This document shows, piece after piece, positions 45,422 through 57,015 of a DNA stretch of 64,000 bases. The DNA comes from a virus: positions 1 through 64,000 of the IMG/VR virus record IMGVR_UViG_3300031673_000019. One strand, given 5' to 3'. The translations under genes were made by a program, and so were the position numbers. Positions within the stretch are counted from its first letter, which is position 1. Every line of letters starts with the position of its first letter. The notes under the pieces are model-generated. The model did not search any database. It was not told the origin of the DNA and saw only the letters and a program-made list of their open reading frames with translations.

Positions 45422-47023
45422 ATGTATAGTGCCGGCAGAGTGCTTGTATCCGTAAAAATAGCGAACACAGGCAGGCGGACGATTCAAAGGTCGGGAGGTG
45501 TCGAGCTTCCGCCTCCGTTCCATCTGCTCGTAATTTCTCCGGGGCAGTCCGCGGAGATGGTTTGTACCAAAGGTCAGATCGAAGAGCGGTGGCCTCATGA
45601 TTCTGGGTTTCGCGTAGCTGACCTACTTCAGCAGCTTGTCCAGTGCGGCATGATTACGATTGATATCTCTCCCTACAGCGACACTATTCTGCCAGTGGGA
45701 GCGGTTGATGTTGATTTGGCTAAGACGATCGGTCAAGATGCGCCCGGCTCGCTATATAATGAGTCGGGCGAAGGAGATGTGATGGGACCTAAGGACGACT
45801 TTCCTGATTTCTTGGATCCGCTGTACAACGCGCCTGCAGAGAAGAAATCGCCCAGCCGAAAGCCTGTGCGCAGCGAAGAGCCTGTGGAGAGGGCGCCGTC
45901 GGACCCTCTCTCGACCGGAGTCGACCTTCCCGACCCTGGGGAGCTTCCGTATGCGTCTAAGAAGAAGGACGACCAGAAGGATAAGTTCGATTCCGCGGTG
46001 AAGATGGCGTTCGTAGGAGCAGGCCAGGGCGGAGGCAGGATTGCCCAGTCGTTTTACGACATGGGCTATCGACGCGTGTGCTGTGTGAACACGACCCAGC
46101 AGGACCTGTCGTCGCTTTCGATCGAGAACAAGCTGGTGATTGGTCACGATCGCGGCGGGGCAGGCAAGGACCCTGAGCAGGGCCGCCTTGCCGCCAAGGA
46201 GTCGTTCGAAGACATCATGGATTTGCTGATGCGATCCTGGGGTCAGGGCGTCGAGCAAATGTGGGTGTGCGTGGGCGCGGGGGGCGGCTCGGGCACAGGG
46301 AGCTGGCCCGTGCTGGTAAAGGCGATGAAGGAATTCGGCGATTCCACGAATGTGGAAAAGCCCATCGAGAAGCATCTTGGCATCATTATGACGATGCCAA
46401 AGAGGAGTGAGGGGTCGCGCGTTCAGAAGAACGCTCTCACTGCATTGCAGCAGGCCGTGGAGCTGGTTGAGGCGAAGAAGATTAGCTCGCTCGTCATTGT
46501 GGACAATGCGAAAATCCACGAGCTGTACCCTGGCCTGCCTGTGAAGAAGTTCTGGGGTGCTGCTAATCAGAACTTTGCAGCGATCCTCCACACGTTCAAC
46601 CTGCTTGCAGCGCAAGACAGTCCATACAACACCTTCGACAAGGCCGATTTTCGGTCTGTGATTCGTAATGGGATCATGATCTTCGGCATGGCCCGCGTCC
46701 AAGACTGGGAGCACAAGGAAGACGTCAGTATGGCGGTGCGCCAAAACCTTGCCGGGTCGCTGCTCGCTGATGGGTTCGACTTGTCCAAGGCCAACATGGC
46801 AGGAGCAATCGTCGTGGCGCACGACGATGTGCTCGAAGAAGTCCCGATGGAGAACATTGACTACGCCTTCAACAGCCTGGGCCGTGCGCTAGGCAATGAA
46901 GGGGTCACTCTGCATAGCGGTATTTACGAATGGAACAAGCCGGGGATGATGGTCTTTACTATCGTGAGCGGCTTGCAGCCTCCGCAGACGCGTTTCGACG
47001 AACTTGAGCGGCTAGCAACGTAA
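45422..47023 (+). CDS. Tubulin/FtsZ-family GTPase with an extra N-terminal domain
   Basis: A 533-residue product. Residues about 194-533 show the FtsZ/TubZ order: an N-terminal nucleotide loop FVGAGQGGGRIAQSFYDMGY with a CVNTTQQDL strand after it, RGGAGKDPEQGRLAAKES, the tubulin signature VGAGGGSGTG (residues 284-293), an LGIIMTMPKRSEG strand, a SSLVIVDNAKI strand, and the T7 loop NTFDKADFRSVIRNGIMIF with the acidic pair Asp406 and Asp409 that completes GTP hydrolysis in the family. Residues 1-80 are a separate domain (VKIANTGRRTIQRSGG, HDSGFRVADLLQQLVQCG) and 120-190 an acidic and basic linker. Tubulin relatives polymerise with GTP; PhuZ of jumbo phages centres the phage nucleus. Here the gene lies inside a structural operon. 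The start region has only a weak ribosome site. Confidence 0.92.
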   Translation: MYSAGRVLVSVKIANTGRRTIQRSGGVELPPPFHLLVISPGQSAEMVCTKGQIEERWPHDSGFRVADLLQQLVQCGMITIDISPYSDTILPVGAVDVDLAKTIGQDAPGSLYNESGEGDVMGPKDDFPDFLDPLYNAPAEKKSPSRKPVRSEEPVERAPSDPLSTGVDLPDPGELPYASKKKDDQKDKFDSAVKMAFVGAGQGGGRIAQSFYDMGYRRVCCVNTTQQDLSSLSIENKLVIGHDRGGAGKDPEQGRLAAKESFEDIMDLLMRSWGQGVEQMWVCVGAGGGSGTGSWPVLVKAMKEFGDSTNVEKPIEKHLGIIMTMPKRSEGSRVQKNALTALQQAVELVEAKKISSLVIVDNAKIHELYPGLPVKKFWGAANQNFAAILHTFNLLAAQDSPYNTFDKADFRSVIRNGIMIFGMARVQDWEHKEDVSMAVRQNLAGSLLADGFDLSKANMAGAIVVAHDDVLEEVPMENIDYAFNSLGRALGNEGVTLHSGIYEWNKPGMMVFTIVSGLQPPQTRFDELERLAT

Positions 47024-47799: not shown

Positions 47800-50340
47800 T
47801 TGCCAGGCTTTGGTTCAGGACCCTTTGGTAAGGGGGCCTTCGGCGAGTGGCCGTGGGCTTCTGAGTCGATCGTCGACGGCATCCCTGCGGTCTACAAGGA
47901 ACAAGACGAAGGGGCTGGCAACGGTACCCTGAGTGCACTGCTTGAGGGTCTCGTCCCGTCACTTGAGTCACTGCGGCGCAAGATTCGCGACTACGATATC
48001 CTGCGAAACCCGCTGCTCGCCCCTGTCGACACGTCCTTCCAAACGACACAGTCGATTTTAAGAAGCGAGAACCTGGGCGACGGAACGTCGCGCGTCTTCT
48101 TGAGCGCAGGCTCCGACGGAGATAACCTGGACGGCCTCCGCGTAGGGATGGTGCTCATCGATTCCCGCGGGTATCGATTCACTATTTGTTCCGTGGCAAC
48201 GTCGACCTTGGCCGCCGACGTTGACGACCCGCCGGTGGATCCGGCGACGGGCGCCCTGACAGGGCGATACGTCATTGTCAATAATATCGGCCAGGTAAGC
48301 ACAGAATTCATCCCGTTCGTATCGGGGACAATCGTCGAGGACGAAGATCCTCTGGCTGGTGCGTTCCCGAACAGCCCAAACGACATTGACGATGGCGCAG
48401 AGCCCCCGCCCTACATCTTCAACGTGGAAGGTTCGTACCTTAGCGGCGACGACATCGCGTTGAACCGGGTCACGGTCACGTGGGAGGAAGGTGGCGACCC
48501 AAAGACCGGGTTTTTTGTCAATACCGGTAACCCTGGCGGAGATCTGGCGGACACTAGCGAAATCAACTATGACGTAGCCTCTACGGCGACAGGGCAGATC
48601 GTTCTATATACGGCGTCAGGTGCGACGATTGATGCGGACACGATTCGCGTCTCGTACACGAGGTCGGGCGGGGCCCTTGTTGAGGATGCCGAGGTTCGCG
48701 CGCAGAACATTTTGGCATTCCTTGCTGCCGACCGAGCGATTTCGCTAGACCTGAATGACCCAGAAGTCTACCAGCGCTCGTTCACAAACAGCGCTTTCAA
48801 GATATGGGAGATCAAAGGCACCGCGAACGGCTATCGCTACATGGGCGAGCTGGGCGGCTATTTTGTTGAAGCAATCCCCCTGTACGCGATCCCGTCGTCG
48901 CTAGCAGTCACGCTCGACCCTGCCACGGTCATCGCGAACCCAGAAGGCGAGTACGCCTCCGGGTCGATTGCGGCAGTGCCCGTAGCGTCGCTGGTTGACG
49001 GCGAAACGTTTACGCTAAGCGATGGAGAGAATCCTCCTGTCACGTTTGAGTTCGACACAGCTCCCATCTCAGTGACCGCCGGGAATGTCTCTGTGGACAT
49101 CAGCGCGGCAACCACAGCGTCCGATGTTGGTTCCGCGATGGCAACGGCCATCAACGGGGCGACGTTTCTGAATCTTGCCGCGGTGGGCGGTAGCACTGTC
49201 ACGGTCACGAATACAGTCGAAGGCGTCGTCGGCAATGTTACGGACTGGAGCGATACGGTTTCTGACCCGAACTTTATGATCAGCCAGCCTACCGGCGGAA
49301 TAGACCCGGTCTGGTTTACGATCATTGCTCCGACGCGGCTGCTGTTCGACGAGGTGATCGCCGACATCATTCCTCTCGACACGTTGTGCTCCGAAGACAC
49401 GTACCCCGGCGCGGTTCAAACGATCACCGTAACGGAGGTCGTTGCCGGCCAGGACCGAGGCAGCGAGACGGGATACACACTGACCGTGTCGACGGCGGAG
49501 ATGTACTTGTCTTTCGGCACGTTTGGCGAGCTGACCGACGCGAACGCGAACCTCTTTGACGTTCTTTCGTACACGCGCCTTACGGCATCGACGTTTGAGG
49601 TGGAAGTTGCATCGTCGCAAACGCCCGTCGTGGGAGCAGGGTCGATCGACTGGAGGGTCCTGCGGTTTACCGCTCCGAATACGGTGACCATTACGGGCAT
49701 CGGAACGGACGTGGAGGATCTTGGTCGCCAGACGGTGGGGTATTCGGGCCGGCGTTACCGTGTCACAAAGACATTCACCGATCCTCCGTTGGCCAGCATC
49801 GGCAACTGGCTTTTTATCGACGCAGATGGCGTCGCGTCGTACATCGAGCGGTTTGAGAACATTCCGTTGACGTCCGACTACGAGATTGAATTCGTGTCAG
49901 AAACTGTTCCGGCGGCAGGAACGGCGAATGTCTATGCAAGCTGCTCTCTGCAACCTAGCTGTGATTTCTGTGCGGCAAGCTCTGTGATCATTCGTGTTGT
50001 AGCTACAGCGATCAACGGGTACCCGGAAGCTATTGATTCTGGGTCGTTCGATCGGATCAGCGGCCGGGTGCTGCGCATGGTTCCAGGCCATGTAAAGCCG
50101 ATCATTCTGGGTATCGTCGACCCGCCAGAGCTTCTGTCGATTACGCCTGGGGACGGGACGAATACGCTGACATGGACAGACGTGGATGGCGCGGTGTCAT
50201 ACAACGTGTACTGGGATACGTCGCCAGACGTGTCTCCCTCTACTTCAAACAAGATTACTGGGGTGGTCTCTCCTTATCTGCACGGCGGTTTAACAAATGG
50301 TGTCACGTACTACTACGTCGTCGTGGCAGTGGGGATCTGA
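47800..50340 (+). CDS. Tail protein (gpI-like region) with LTLTG-like module and FN3
   Basis: TTG at 47800 gives 846 residues. Residues about 295-360 hold LAADRAISLDLNDPEVYQRS, NSAFKIWEIKGTANGYRYMG, the P2 I-type baseplate pattern. Residues about 385-500 hold a beta module (GSIAAVPVASLVDGETFTLS, ATAINGATF) related to that in the sheath and the 38369 protein. Residues about 774-846 are a fibronectin type III domain (GTNTLTWTDVDGAVSYNVYW, GLTNGVTYYYVVVAV). The gene is separated by 18 kb from the gpJ-like gene. Its stop overlaps the next ATG. Confidence 0.6.
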   Translation: MPGFGSGPFGKGAFGEWPWASESIVDGIPAVYKEQDEGAGNGTLSALLEGLVPSLESLRRKIRDYDILRNPLLAPVDTSFQTTQSILRSENLGDGTSRVFLSAGSDGDNLDGLRVGMVLIDSRGYRFTICSVATSTLAADVDDPPVDPATGALTGRYVIVNNIGQVSTEFIPFVSGTIVEDEDPLAGAFPNSPNDIDDGAEPPPYIFNVEGSYLSGDDIALNRVTVTWEEGGDPKTGFFVNTGNPGGDLADTSEINYDVASTATGQIVLYTASGATIDADTIRVSYTRSGGALVEDAEVRAQNILAFLAADRAISLDLNDPEVYQRSFTNSAFKIWEIKGTANGYRYMGELGGYFVEAIPLYAIPSSLAVTLDPATVIANPEGEYASGSIAAVPVASLVDGETFTLSDGENPPVTFEFDTAPISVTAGNVSVDISAATTASDVGSAMATAINGATFLNLAAVGGSTVTVTNTVEGVVGNVTDWSDTVSDPNFMISQPTGGIDPVWFTIIAPTRLLFDEVIADIIPLDTLCSEDTYPGAVQTITVTEVVAGQDRGSETGYTLTVSTAEMYLSFGTFGELTDANANLFDVLSYTRLTASTFEVEVASSQTPVVGAGSIDWRVLRFTAPNTVTITGIGTDVEDLGRQTVGYSGRRYRVTKTFTDPPLASIGNWLFIDADGVASYIERFENIPLTSDYEIEFVSETVPAAGTANVYASCSLQPSCDFCAASSVIIRVVATAINGYPEAIDSGSFDRISGRVLRMVPGHVKPIILGIVDPPELLSITPGDGTNTLTWTDVDGAVSYNVYWDTSPDVSPSTSNKITGVVSPYLHGGLTNGVTYYYVVVAVGI

Positions 50341-52823
50341 TGTCATACGAGAGCTTTCCAAGCAATGAACTTGATGGAGCACCGGAGTCGGGGCTCGACA
50401 CGCCTGTTCTCTCGATTGCGGGGCAGGGGGATGGCTACATTGACCTTTCCTGGGGCGCCGTCGCGGGCGCCGCAAGGTATTGCGTCTTCTACTCGTTCAC
50501 TCCAGGAGTCACGACAGACGCCGCGTCGCTGGCGTCTCTGAGCCTTGTCCTCAACCCTGGATCGGGTTCTAACCTTAGAATTGCTGACATAGATCAGACT
50601 GGCCTTGATATTACGTCTAATATCACGGTCGAGTGCTGGGTCAAGTTTGTTGGCGATATCTTCAATGACGATATCGACTTGGTTGCGAAAAATTCAGTCG
50701 TTTCGTCAGGTAGCTACGCCTTTCAGTTCCTGTACGGAGGAGGTGTACCGTCTCTGTCGTTTGCTTTGAGCGATGATGGAACGACGTTTGTGGATGTCAC
50801 GAGGGCGTGGTCGCCGGTGGCAGACACCTGGTACCATCTCGCCGCGACCTGGAACAGCTCGCCTGACAGGGCGCGGATCTACGTAGACGGCGTACAGCTA
50901 GGGGCCGACGAGGTCCTTGGAATTGCTTCTGTCTTTGATGGGACCTCCGACTTCAAGATTGGCCTCGGCGGTGCCGGCGTGTACACGTTCTATCTTGACG
51001 ACGTGAGGGTTTGGGACGTCGAGCGTACGGCTGGTGAGATCTCTTCCAACCGCAGCGTTCAGCTAGACCCTGCCTCCGAGGCTGACCTGCAAGGTTACTA
51101 CACGATGAGCGTCGTCGGGCGTGACGCGACGGCTAACGGCAATCATCTCTCCGAAGTTGGCTCGATTGCCTATGATGGCGATGTTCCGTTTGAGATCACT
51201 GGCACGTCGTTCAGGCACCTTGGCCTAGAGAGCGGCGCGCAGGTCTATTACATCATGGTGGCCAGGACGGCGGCAGCCGGGCGGTGCGGCTTTGGGGCAG
51301 GCACCGGCGTCTCTGCGGCCAGCGACGAAGAGAGCGGAGTTGCGCTAGGGGCTCCGACGTTGTCTGTGGCGGCCGGGGATGGCGAGAACGTTGTGACATT
51401 CACTTTTGTGGCTGGCGCAACCTCTTACAATCTTTACTTTGGGGCGTCTGGGGCAGGCCTTGGTGGAACTAAGATTACAGGCGCCACGACGCCGTACACG
51501 CATACGGGCCTCACGAATGGAGTAGAGGTTTGCTATGTGGCGACGGCGGTTGTCGGCGGATCCGAGTCCGATGCATCGAACGAAGACTGCGGCACCCCGG
51601 CGGCCGTTGGGGGTACGGAAGATATTGTTTTGCTAATGGGCGGAGTTGTTGGCACCAACGAAGTGAACATGGCCGCTCTGTATGATACCGGCGCAGGGAC
51701 CTGGACGTCGGGGGTCAATATGCCCATCGGCAGGGACGGCGCGTTCATATGCAAGCCGGAATCAGAGTATGCATTCTATATAGCGGGGGAGACACTGTCT
51801 GCCATTCAAAGCACTGGTTATTTCTATAACCATGACCTGGATGTGTACGGGGCTATCCCAGCTTTCCCGGAAGTGCGTAACGCTGCGTCCGCGATTCATG
51901 TTCCTGGCAGCGTTCACCCAAGCGGGACCGATCGTTTCTTTATTATGCTGGGAGCGGACGCCCTGGGCACCGGCGGCGCGACGAATACATCCTATGTGAT
52001 TGATCCGAATTCGGGATATGCATCGTCGGCATTGGCTGTGTTCCCTTATGCGAATGGGTACCGTAGTGCCTGGGTTGGCTTAACGTCCAAGACGACCGAT
52101 GGGAATCCGAAGCTCGTGATTATCTCAGGTGAGATCAGTAGCTCAGATCCGAACTACCCTTCGTGCACAGGTGACGGCGAGGACAAGGTGTTTATTTACG
52201 ATATAACAACCGACACCTGGAGCCAGGGCGCTGATATATCAGGGTTCACCACTGGCGGTGGAGTTTGTGCGTTTGACAGCACGTTAGATGGTCATTCGAT
52301 GATCGTCATGGATGACGGAAGGATATTGACGGTCGGAGGAAAGTGGGAAAGCACCACGCCTTCGTTTGGTGCATTGGCAGACTGCTTGATATATGACGCG
52401 GAGCTTGACACGTGGACAGCCACTGGTCCGCTGTCGGCGCCAAGGATGAGTGCATCTGTTTTGAGGTTGGCGAATGGAAAAATCATGGCCGTTGGCGGGC
52501 AGAATACCGCCAATACTTCAGTGGCGACGTGTGAGCTGTACGATCAGGCGCTCGGCACATGGACCACAGCCGCACCAATGTCGATTGCAAGGGAAGCTCC
52601 TTTTGCAATTTTGCTGTCGAGTGGAAAAGTTCTCGTGGCTGGCGGGAAGACGGGGGGATCGACGGCGACGAGCACGTGCGAGATATACGATCCTGACTTG
52701 GACACGTGGACTGCCACAGGCGCCCTGCCGACGGCGGCGGATCGCGGTGACGCAGACATCAGATCCGGCGTGCCAATGGGTGGCGGCGGGATGAATGGTC
52801 TTATGATTGTAGATACTTACTAG
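50340..52823 (+). CDS. Modular adhesin: FN3 interrupted by a LamG-type lectin, second FN3, and Kelch propeller
   Basis: ATG at 50340 gives 827 residues. An FN3 domain begins at residue about 18 (GYIDLSWGAVAGAARYCVFY) and its second half resumes at about 280 (FRHLGLESGAQVYYIMVAR), so a LamG/ConA-like lectin domain (residues about 65-275: LDITSNITVECWVKFVGD, DTWYHLAATWN, ARIYVDGVQLG, FYLDDVRVWDVERT) is inserted within it. A second FN3 lies at about 337-417. Residues 425-827 hold Kelch-type repeats (CLIYDAELDTWTATGPLS, GKIMAVGG, CELYDQALGTWTTAAPMS, CEIYDPDLDTWTATGALP). It is likely a carbohydrate- or protein-binding tail adhesin. Confidence 0.8.
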   Translation: MSYESFPSNELDGAPESGLDTPVLSIAGQGDGYIDLSWGAVAGAARYCVFYSFTPGVTTDAASLASLSLVLNPGSGSNLRIADIDQTGLDITSNITVECWVKFVGDIFNDDIDLVAKNSVVSSGSYAFQFLYGGGVPSLSFALSDDGTTFVDVTRAWSPVADTWYHLAATWNSSPDRARIYVDGVQLGADEVLGIASVFDGTSDFKIGLGGAGVYTFYLDDVRVWDVERTAGEISSNRSVQLDPASEADLQGYYTMSVVGRDATANGNHLSEVGSIAYDGDVPFEITGTSFRHLGLESGAQVYYIMVARTAAAGRCGFGAGTGVSAASDEESGVALGAPTLSVAAGDGENVVTFTFVAGATSYNLYFGASGAGLGGTKITGATTPYTHTGLTNGVEVCYVATAVVGGSESDASNEDCGTPAAVGGTEDIVLLMGGVVGTNEVNMAALYDTGAGTWTSGVNMPIGRDGAFICKPESEYAFYIAGETLSAIQSTGYFYNHDLDVYGAIPAFPEVRNAASAIHVPGSVHPSGTDRFFIMLGADALGTGGATNTSYVIDPNSGYASSALAVFPYANGYRSAWVGLTSKTTDGNPKLVIISGEISSSDPNYPSCTGDGEDKVFIYDITTDTWSQGADISGFTTGGGVCAFDSTLDGHSMIVMDDGRILTVGGKWESTTPSFGALADCLIYDAELDTWTATGPLSAPRMSASVLRLANGKIMAVGGQNTANTSVATCELYDQALGTWTTAAPMSIAREAPFAILLSSGKVLVAGGKTGGSTATSTCEIYDPDLDTWTATGALPTAADRGDADIRSGVPMGGGGMNGLMIVDTY

Positions 52824-52857: not shown

Positions 52858-55278
52858 ATGCCGGTCGATCAGCAAGCCCTTGACTCCTCTGCCATTGCCA
52901 CGAGATGGAAGGAGCCGTACGTCTCGGCGTCCGTCAATCACCGTGGTGTCGGCATCCTTGCGCCGGGAATCTATCGGGGGCTAAAGCTCGCGGAAGACGG
53001 CGGCGCAGGAGATCGCACTGTCATCGTAGAGGACGATGCGGACTACGGCGACCACGTTGCCGGGTACGAGACGAGCGATGGGTACTTCATCCACTATCGC
53101 GATGCCTCAGCTGGCAACATTACCCTGACCCTGACGGATTATTCCAGCCAGACGGTCGTCGTAGCGATTTACATTGAGTACGCAATCGGTTCAGATACGA
53201 CGGGCGTCTTCCGTACGTACACGGTTGCCGAATTTGATGCGCTCTCTGCTTCAGCACGAGGAGAGCTGGTCGTTCTTGGGACAGTCGTCGTCCCGGCGTC
53301 TGGTGCGATTGTGGCGGCGAGTATCACGGCTGACCGGAGAACATCCGCGTCGGCCAATCGCCAGCGTGGCACGGTTCAGGCCGCTCCTATTGTACGAAAC
53401 CCGAGCTTTGAATTCGGCGTATCAGGAGATGCATACGAGCATTCTTCGCTGTTTTGGAGGAAAAAGTCTACGCTTGGTACTGGCACGTGGACTACGACCA
53501 CGGCGACTGCGAATGTGGGCGCCAAGTCAGTTCTGCTCAGCGTAGCGTCGGGCCCGTTCTCAGGAGAGCTGATCCAGTCGATAGGCGCAGCGACGCGCGA
53601 GGGAGAATCCCTTATCTGCCAGCTGTTCGTCCGTCAGGTGCAAACGATATCCTCAGGCTCGATTGAAGCGTTCGTGGAGTTTGCTGACGCTGACGGGCGT
53701 GCGATGACGAGATCTACGGTTACGCTTGACGGAGGCGCAGCCGATGGGTCATTCCGTGAAGTTAGCTTTACGCTTACGGCCCCAGCGACAGCTACGTCTA
53801 TTCGCACGCTAGGCATTCAGGCCGTATCCTTGGATCCGACGGCGCCGGGCGATGTTATATACATCGATGATTTTACGGCGTTGATCGACGTCGAGGATAC
53901 CAGGCTCTATAATCCGTATGATCAAAACTGGCGTCAGCCTGTCAACGTTGAATCGATCGTGCTGCAGCAGCAGGACGACACAGAGTGGAACGATAATACG
54001 GCTTTAATCGAGTATGATGGTGCATCGCCGAGCACAGAAGGATCTGTAAAAATTGGATCGGGGTCTTCGTCGCTGCCGCCGGCTCTTGCGATTTTCGGCA
54101 GAATTCTTGGTATTGGTTCCGGCCTGTCGGACAGTTTGTCCAATGGGCTGAAGCCACGCATCCAGGCGGATGCTGCTACGACGTATACCGAGTACACGCC
54201 CATGTACACGATGGACGTGGCAGGGCAGGGGTCGGGACGCATCTACTCCCGCGACGATGGGTCCCTCGTCATGACCGTAAACGCTCGGTGGGATGGCTCG
54301 ATTTGGAACCAAGACGTTGCAGATGACTCCTCGCGACTTGATCTGAAAACCTCCGGCGTCGAAGTTCTTTTGAAAACGTCGACAGCAAGCTGGGCGGATG
54401 GGGCGTGGACATCAACGGCGGTCAGCGTAGGCACCGATGCTACGACATTGACAGACTTGATCGTGACCAGCCTGGGCGGGTCACGGATTAGCTCAGATGT
54501 CGAGTCACTCCAGCCGCGCCTTGAGGGGCCCGTCCGAGCCCTTGGCACCGAAGATGACTACACGCTGATCTGGCGGTTCGGCACACCCAGCCTGAAGCAG
54601 TTCCGAATGTTCGTGAGCCCCACGGGGCGAATGTTCGGCACAGTCAACGCCGTCTATGACGGCACCGATTGGACCAAGGACGTCAACGGCGAAGAGGCTA
54701 TTGCCTTGGAGATGAGCGGCGGCGCCACGGCTGCAGCTACGATTTACATCCAAGAGACAGGCACGGACACATGGTCCGACGGCGCATGGTCCGACACGGT
54801 TGCTTCGTTTGACGTCGGATCTCGATATAAGACGATCCCGCTATTCGCCGGGCGGGATGACGGTGCAGACTGGGGCCTTGTTGTAAGCGCAACAGCTCCA
54901 GGAATTTATTGGTCAACAAATACAGGATCTGGAAGCTCCCTCTTCATACCCATACCTGTAGAATCGGGGGAGGTTATTGAATCTGTTACGGCGATAGTCG
55001 ACAACCACATCGCCGGGACCAGCGGCGCCATGACTCTAGACATGGAGGTCCTCCAGTACGCCCACGGCGTAACGGCGGCGACGGTGACATCGTTTGGCAC
55101 GGACTCGATAGTGGATCTCGCAGACACTTTTGCTATCATTGCGTCCGTCAACTTGTCTTCGCATGTCGCGAGTGCAGTGAGCAACTCTTACTACATGCGT
55201 CTTGCTACTGGAGCAGGCGCCGCCGAGCGACGGGTTTCTGCGGCTTTCTACAAGTACAAGAAACCATCCTGGAGCTAG
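52858..55278 (+). CDS. Large beta-rich tail protein with a CBM-like domain
   Basis: An 806-residue product. Residues 1-160 form a beta head (YVSASVNHRGVGILAPGIYR, DGYFIHYRDASAGNITLTL). Residues about 178-345 look like a carbohydrate-binding module (IVRNPSFEFGVSG, ELIQSIGAA, GDVIYIDDFTALID). The C-terminal half is rich in Ser, Thr and Asp beta segments. It probably is a fibre or baseplate adhesin. No enzymatic motif was recognised. Start ATG follows an AGGTATAGGAAG sequence. Confidence 0.6.
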   Translation: MPVDQQALDSSAIATRWKEPYVSASVNHRGVGILAPGIYRGLKLAEDGGAGDRTVIVEDDADYGDHVAGYETSDGYFIHYRDASAGNITLTLTDYSSQTVVVAIYIEYAIGSDTTGVFRTYTVAEFDALSASARGELVVLGTVVVPASGAIVAASITADRRTSASANRQRGTVQAAPIVRNPSFEFGVSGDAYEHSSLFWRKKSTLGTGTWTTTTATANVGAKSVLLSVASGPFSGELIQSIGAATREGESLICQLFVRQVQTISSGSIEAFVEFADADGRAMTRSTVTLDGGAADGSFREVSFTLTAPATATSIRTLGIQAVSLDPTAPGDVIYIDDFTALIDVEDTRLYNPYDQNWRQPVNVESIVLQQQDDTEWNDNTALIEYDGASPSTEGSVKIGSGSSSLPPALAIFGRILGIGSGLSDSLSNGLKPRIQADAATTYTEYTPMYTMDVAGQGSGRIYSRDDGSLVMTVNARWDGSIWNQDVADDSSRLDLKTSGVEVLLKTSTASWADGAWTSTAVSVGTDATTLTDLIVTSLGGSRISSDVESLQPRLEGPVRALGTEDDYTLIWRFGTPSLKQFRMFVSPTGRMFGTVNAVYDGTDWTKDVNGEEAIALEMSGGATAAATIYIQETGTDTWSDGAWSDTVASFDVGSRYKTIPLFAGRDDGADWGLVVSATAPGIYWSTNTGSGSSLFIPIPVESGEVIESVTAIVDNHIAGTSGAMTLDMEVLQYAHGVTAATVTSFGTDSIVDLADTFAIIASVNLSSHVASAVSNSYYMRLATGAGAAERRVSAAFYKYKKPSWS

Positions 55279-56613: not shown

Positions 56614-56724
56614 CTCCAATATTCCTAGTCGCTTGCGGATCTTGATCAAAAACGGTAGGTTCGGTGTGGCCGATCCTGATCGGCGAAGACATAGTTGGGC
56701 CGTGTGGCCCGCACGGAGGACGAC

Positions 56725-57015
56725 ATGCTTACGTTGAACATCACGAACACATCTGGCACAGACATCGCTGCGGGCGACGGCGTTCTTCCCAGCGCATTGA
56801 GCTGGGTTGACCTGGCCGACACTGCCAACGTCGACGTTGTGATTCAGGTCGGAGACCTCGCGAGGGTCGAGACCAACCACTCGGGCTTTACGTTTGGAGA
56901 GCTTCTCCAGCAGCTCAAGCAGCGTGGCATCTGCACGTACAACGTCACCGACCTCGGCGACGACGAAGATGACGGCAGCGTGGCGGACCACGCCGTCGCA
57001 ACCGCAGCGGCGTAG
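56725..57015 (+). CDS. Small protein sharing the N-terminal module of the tubulin-like protein
   Basis: ATG at 56725 after GGAGGACG gives 96 residues. The sequence LTLNITNTSGTDIAAGDGVL followed by NHSGFTFGELLQQLKQRGI and a CTYNVTD strand aligns by eye with residues 7-83 of the 45422 product (HDSGFRVADLLQQLVQCG). Eleven of 25 residues in that segment are identical. The C-terminus is acidic with an Ala-rich end. It may be a structural protein carrying an interaction domain. The 111-base gap upstream shows no gene. Confidence 0.7.
   Translation: MLTLNITNTSGTDIAAGDGVLPSALSWVDLADTANVDVVIQVGDLARVETNHSGFTFGELLQQLKQRGICTYNVTDLGDDEDDGSVADHAVATAAA

Follow-up and report, generated by a model that had tools for sequence, protein, structure and literature searches.

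A tail-cluster protein combining FN3 domains, a LamG-type lectin domain and a Kelch propeller, encoded next to a gpI-like baseplate gene

In the window, a 64,000-base stretch within a 76,157-base virus record, we found an ORF encoding a protein, here called P0001, with an unusual domain arrangement: two FN3 domains, the first of which appears to be split by an inserted LamG-type lectin domain, and a Kelch-type propeller at the end. The parts are known phage building blocks. What makes P0001 a new variant is their combination, the placing of a lectin within an FN3 domain, and a further FN3 domain that seems to straddle two genes. The same architecture was found in no record of the collections searched. 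On balance we lean towards viewing P0001 as a host-recognition extension of the baseplate, that is, as a swapped C-terminal end of the P2 gpI-like protein encoded just upstream, separated from the rest by a change of frame. The features concerned are the following.

47800..50340, + strand: P2 gpI-like baseplate protein (a distant relative, see below), 846 aa, with an FN3 domain cut short at its C-terminus (Tail_P2_I family; FN3 profile)
50134..50337, + strand: truncated FN3 of the upstream protein, residues 779-846, without strand G (identity with FN3-2; FN3 profile)
50338..50342, + strand: TGATG overlap of the upstream stop and the P0001 start (sequence)
50340..52823, + strand: P0001, 827 aa, FN3 with putative LamG insert, FN3 and Kelch (ORF and translation; domain searches)
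50340..50387, + strand: P0001 residues 1-16, similar to the strand G missing from the upstream FN3 (FN3 score gain; motif ESxxSNExxxxP)
50394..50513, + strand: first half of FN3-1, early strands, residues 19-58 (profile positions 6-33)
50535..51164, + strand: LamG, apparently inserted in FN3-1, residues about 66-275 (Pfam Laminin_G_3; model)
51183..51344, + strand: second half of FN3-1, late strands, residues 282-335 (profile positions 39-66)
51357..51605, + strand: FN3-2, residues 340-422 (independent FN3 profile; pLDDT >90 in most of it)
51621..52820, + strand: Kelch propeller, probably seven-bladed, residues 428-827 (Pfam Kelch; model; galactose oxidase match)
52858..55278, + strand: fibre-like protein encoded downstream, 806 aa (in relatives, homologues come after the gpI-like gene)

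The ORF of P0001 is real: it starts with the ATG at 50340, its stop ends at 52823, and LamG, FN3-2 and Kelch, all named in the preliminary description, were recovered. An alignment over all 827 residues was abandoned because the Kelch and LamG rows were misplaced in it. In the alignment made for LamG (A2), three near-duplicate LamG fragments were left out, and in the one made for Kelch (A3) we used 26 of 33 Kelch fragments, dropping short or near-duplicate ones.

The early strands of a split FN3 domain had been placed at about residues 18-60 and the late strands at about 280-320, and these ranges turned out to be right within a few residues. We used a profile for which FN3 domains were taken exclusively from three other viral contigs (L037, L051 and L038). 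Residues 29-56 of P0001 align with its positions 6-33, residues 282-309 with positions 39-66, and residues 341-422 with positions 2-84 (i-E 1.9e-9). The last match is FN3-2, the second FN3 that was said to follow the split one. Thus, the two outer pieces, ~220 residues apart, correspond to adjoining segments of a single FN3. With the lectin removed and the halves of FN3-1 fused, the score is 27.6 bits with this independent profile; when either half was shuffled 1000 times, no shuffle reached this value. Additionally, the best of 1515 tested excisions in the N-terminal region removed residues 58 to 278, which is LamG. The insertion point lies in what we take to be the C'-E region of the FN3 topology.

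The joined halves were also aligned with hhalign to profile A4, composed of the three-domain profile and FN3-2 (probability 95.7, E 1e-8). A4 itself matches solved FN3 structures (3mpc with E 5e-26, titin and tenascin-R), and the FN3 fold label is therefore sound. Pfam fn3 (PF00041) gave no match for FN3-2, joined FN3-1 or the upstream FN3; L038, one of the profile's own members, reaches 24.1 bits against the Pfam cut-off of 25.

These comparisons support the claim that LamG sits within FN3-1 of P0001, whereas structure prediction gave the claim no support. In the AlphaFold model of residues 1-430, LamG and FN3-2 are well modelled and the two halves of FN3-1 have pLDDT 30-40, since almost no alignment row covered them. 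Among the LamG loci, we recognised no other protein with LamG inside FN3, as judged with a narrow FN3 profile. One locus (L014) has stretches that look FN3-like by eye and were missed by the profile; they stand in tandem with LamG, which does not lie inside them. A limited literature search, which says little about print overall, found neither LamG in FN3 nor an FN3 split over two phage genes.

In the lectin domain, Laminin_G_3 (PF13385) matches residues 78-235 with 67.2 bits, against a curated cut-off of 27.6 (E 2.4e-18), and the model, with pLDDT mostly >80 from residue 80 to 230, has a pentraxin / PAPP-A-like fold (Z about 17). The LamG domains nearest to that of P0001 (phmmer E to 2e-32), in L086, L094 and L095, stand ahead of a long serine/alanine/proline repeat, which in one of the three is followed by a glycine-rich domain. 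In another locus (L004), a frame of 2307 aa carries LamG and then dozens of short degenerate repeats of the F-S-G-D-A-S-L type.

The Kelch-type propeller proposed earlier is supported by Pfam, Foldseek and VIA-align. Pfam recognised four stretches each for Kelch_6 (E 2.2e-24) and Kelch_1 (E 1.9e-22), mainly in residues 590-800, with scores above the curated cut-off (78.8 and 85 bits for PF01344 and PF13964). The repeats LDTWTATG and LGTWTTAA lie where they had been described. By sequence, the closest solved relatives are designed and human Kelch domains. Foldseek likewise ranked designed Kelch proteins and KLHL20 first among Kelch structures (top E 4.6e-17).

The model of residues 425-827 has a pTM of 0.69, with pLDDT mostly >90 in much of its second half and <50 in residues 466-531; the pLDDT of blade 2 is low. 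It aligns end to end with galactose oxidase (VIA-align Z 27.1, rmsd 2.6 over 297 residues, top rank), ahead of the six-bladed Kelch domains (about Z 23). Galactose oxidase propellers are seven-bladed, and the Kelch domains compared here six-bladed. A Kelch-blade profile recognised blade 1 and the last four blades by sequence (five in all, one weak) and detected no motif in blades 2-3. Seven blades are likely, though not proven.

As galactose oxidases are the best structural matches of the propeller model, one might ask whether it is an active enzyme of that kind. We hold this to be most improbable. The adjacent tyrosine and histidine copper ligands of AA5 enzymes are absent: residues 425-827 contain no Tyr-His dipeptide, while the active site of galactose oxidase includes the adjacent Tyr495-His496. 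Without such a pair, oxidase activity is not expected. Moreover, the match of Glyoxal_oxid_N to P0001 has an E of only 0.098, and the protein has no sequence beyond the propeller from which a third domain could come.

In the preliminary description, P0001 was treated as a self-contained ORF. It is instead probably a continuation of the upstream baseplate protein, whose ORF ends inside an FN3 domain. Tail_P2_I matches 5 of 8 members of the upstream protein's family (E up to 1, best 7.6e-5), and one member has a Big_1 domain. The window's own protein misses the Tail_P2_I cut-off (11.6 bits versus 20.6, E 0.26), and with this reservation we consider it a distant, P2 gpI-like relative. Its C-terminal FN3 is 50% identical to FN3-2 of P0001. 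Residues 780-844 cover positions 3-66 of the 86 positions of the FN3 profile, and strand G is missing.

P0001 begins at the TGATG overlap, in the -1 frame. Its initial sequence, MSYESFPSNELDGAP, fits the strand G pattern ESxxSNExxxxP. With the first 24 residues of P0001 appended, the upstream FN3 scores 43.0 bits instead of 36.5, a modest gain that 2 of 1033 N-termini of other ORFs and 11 of 1000 shuffles also achieved. The motif was absent from all 1041 ORF N-termini searched for it, and every other occurrence in the collected ORFs is directly after strand F of an FN3. The first ~16 residues of P0001 thus look like the missing strand G of the upstream FN3. Taken together, the truncated FN3 and the strand G-like start suggest that both ORFs were probably once one chain.

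The surroundings are those of a tail protein, as had been proposed. The window encodes a portal, a head protease, a major head protein, a sheath, a hub, baseplate V and a baseplate wedge, and the virus is a large, uncultured, contractile-tailed phage with T4-like head and tail parts. A scan with the major head protein yielded 243 relatives, and the 78 loci kept include contigs of up to about 200 kb, which suggests that the 76,157-base record is probably a fragment. We searched 46 of the 78 loci (long and hand-picked, the other 32 being left out) for P0001 and for the upstream protein. P0001 was found in none of these 46 long relatives, as expected of a swapped module, and the gpI-like protein in 11. 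Relatives of the upstream protein were found neither in viral_contigs nor in annotated phages.

Seven of the 11 matching records were read; the other four had one partial match each. In all seven, the gpI-like gene is followed, directly or past one or two small genes, by a fibre-like gene homologous to the window's downstream one, and the place of P0001 within the contractile-tail module, between the distant Tail_P2_I relative and the fibre-like gene, supports its assignment to the tail. In two loci (L203 and L204, records G009 and G042), the fibre-like gene occurs as three tandem paralogues behind the gpI-like gene.

The C-terminus of the gpI-like protein differs among the seven. In three relatives it is a stretch of about 210-260 aa, jelly-roll-like on visual inspection; one has a TIG domain (E 9e-10), one has short hydrophobic repeats, and in two the protein stops soon after the conserved core. 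P0001 occupies the place of these variable ends and is most readily understood as another case of an exchanged end.

The host-recognition extension that we favour would work as follows. A P2 gpI-like baseplate protein would have a variable C-terminal end that is exchanged between relatives; here this end would be a chain of an FN3, an FN3 with LamG in its C'-E loop, another FN3 and the Kelch propeller. The FN3 domains might serve as spacers, with LamG held out sideways and the propeller forming the tip, and the LamG and Kelch faces might bind a glycan or protein of the host surface. A frame change inside the first FN3 would split the chain into two ORFs meeting at TGATG, so that the distal part would be a coupled second protein or the product of occasional frameshifting, unless the split is an assembly error. 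The order of the domains, the match of the split FN3 by sequence, the genes around P0001, the different ends in relatives and the likeness to strand G are observed. We infer the presence in the virion, the binding of a ligand and the way in which the two ORFs are joined; position and domain types are what point to host binding.

How the ORFs are joined may be explained in several ways. A single base missing or extra in the assembly would turn the gpI-like protein and P0001 into one ORF. This is possible, though we would not bet on it: the junction lies at a GGGG run, and in the relatives read the gpI-like core and the variable C-terminal stretch share one ORF, but a run of four bases is short for an indel error. 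Rather unlikely, in our view, is programmed -1 frameshifting near 50330-50350, which would give a long protein with a complete FN3 and place the extension on part of the baseplate copies, as in SPP1. It would fit the continuation of strand G in the -1 frame at the P0001 start and the P0001 frame being open back to 50037 (an open frame of 928 aa), and a passage of PMC9022992 describes programmed frameshifts that add Ig-like and FN3 domains in phages. Against it, no XXXYYYZ slippery heptamer occurs in 50030-50350, just the GGGG run at 50331 (non-canonical sites are possible), and the junction coincides with an ATG, as it would in ordinary coupled genes. Moreover, P0001 has no counterpart in the relatives searched, and thus no conserved frameshift signal can be compared. 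Both the frameshifting and the assembly-error readings are compatible with a role in host recognition. We give still less credit to the idea that the N-terminal strand of P0001 docks in trans as strand G into the upstream FN3, plugging a receptor-binding arm into the baseplate.

A different kind of explanation would place P0001 outside the virion altogether, as a Kelch protein of its own, surface-acting or of the lysogeny type, whose position in the tail cluster is accidental. The Kelch proteins of phages Jimmer2 and D6 do stand outside the tail module. Nevertheless, this is very improbable for P0001, which lies between baseplate and fibre genes, overlaps the baseplate gene at TGATG and has FN3 in common with it.

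If a host-recognition extension is indeed what P0001 forms, it illustrates how the end of a baseplate protein differs between related phages, in this case through a lectin-type domain set into FN3 and a terminal Kelch propeller. Should the gene boundary within FN3 prove genuine, frameshifting and strand complementation could be tested here as ways of attaching a tail appendage. The finding also strengthens the case that Kelch propellers are a recurrent part of phage baseplates.

Kelch propellers had been called rare in phage virion proteins, a view that holds in part. A passage of PMC5259590 calls Kelch unusual in phage and reports one Kelch protein, CBB_552, in the CBB virion. On the other hand, a strict DNA pattern for Kelch found 40 viral stretches. 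Of these records, 35 have Kelch_1 and 15 Baseplate_J (E up to 0.01). In three (G061, G068 and G083), a single ORF of 2315-2340 aa contains both Kelch and Baseplate_J, and in another three (G002, G054 and G087, the last two of which look like one family) Kelch lies within about 4 kb of Baseplate_J. In the other nine Baseplate_J records, Kelch is further off or the listed Kelch is elsewhere. Tail_P2_I was found in none of the 40. A single Kelch query against annotated phages matched 10 of 50,697 records; the Kelch genes of Mx1 and phiERICV are in the tail cluster, and those of Jimmer2 (near a recombinase) and D6 (among tRNAs) outside the tail module, so that Kelch alone does not mean virion. Kelch domains in phages are uncommon but not exotic.

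Several of these proteins invite comparison with P0001. The 'kelch repeat protein' of Mx1 (OR576727), encoded directly after baseplate J, and that of locus L003, in a baseplate cluster, are also phage Kelch propellers. However, they have a different N-terminal part, a search of them for LamG or FN3 gave no match, and the gene after Kelch is not detectably related to the window's downstream gene. Because L003 and Mx1 are themselves related (46%), they do not count as two independent cases. The 'phage structural protein' QHZ54126 of phiERICV likewise has Kelch repeats and is encoded directly after tail protein I, but it is smaller (a 606-aa frame) and without a LamG match. In the IMG/VR records G061, G068 and G083 Kelch is attached to a baseplate protein too, albeit another one and within a single ORF. 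CBB_550/552/554 of the contractile jumbo phage CBB have Kelch-type propellers as well; they are likened here by description and not by sequence, and the passage of PMC5259590 that describes them does not mention LamG in FN3. In SPP1 gp17.1*, according to a passage of PMC9022992, a tail protein gains an FN3 by way of a frame change, as we suppose for P0001. That protein is a tube protein with a +1 shift, whereas in P0001 the frame change would fall within FN3 and is perhaps not programmed.

Another gene of the tail cluster (45422-47023, + strand) encodes a GTPase of the tubulin/FtsZ family (Pfam Tubulin E 9.8e-15, TubZ-like_C E 3.1e-6) with about 190 extra N-terminal residues. In annotated phages it has only four matches, all of them partial. 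Its residues 8-87 (45443-45682) resemble part (56725-56961) of the ORF at 56695-57015 (28% over 80 residues, pairwise E 8e-7), which suggests that the tubulin-like GTPase may carry a domain in common with a small neighbour among the tail genes.
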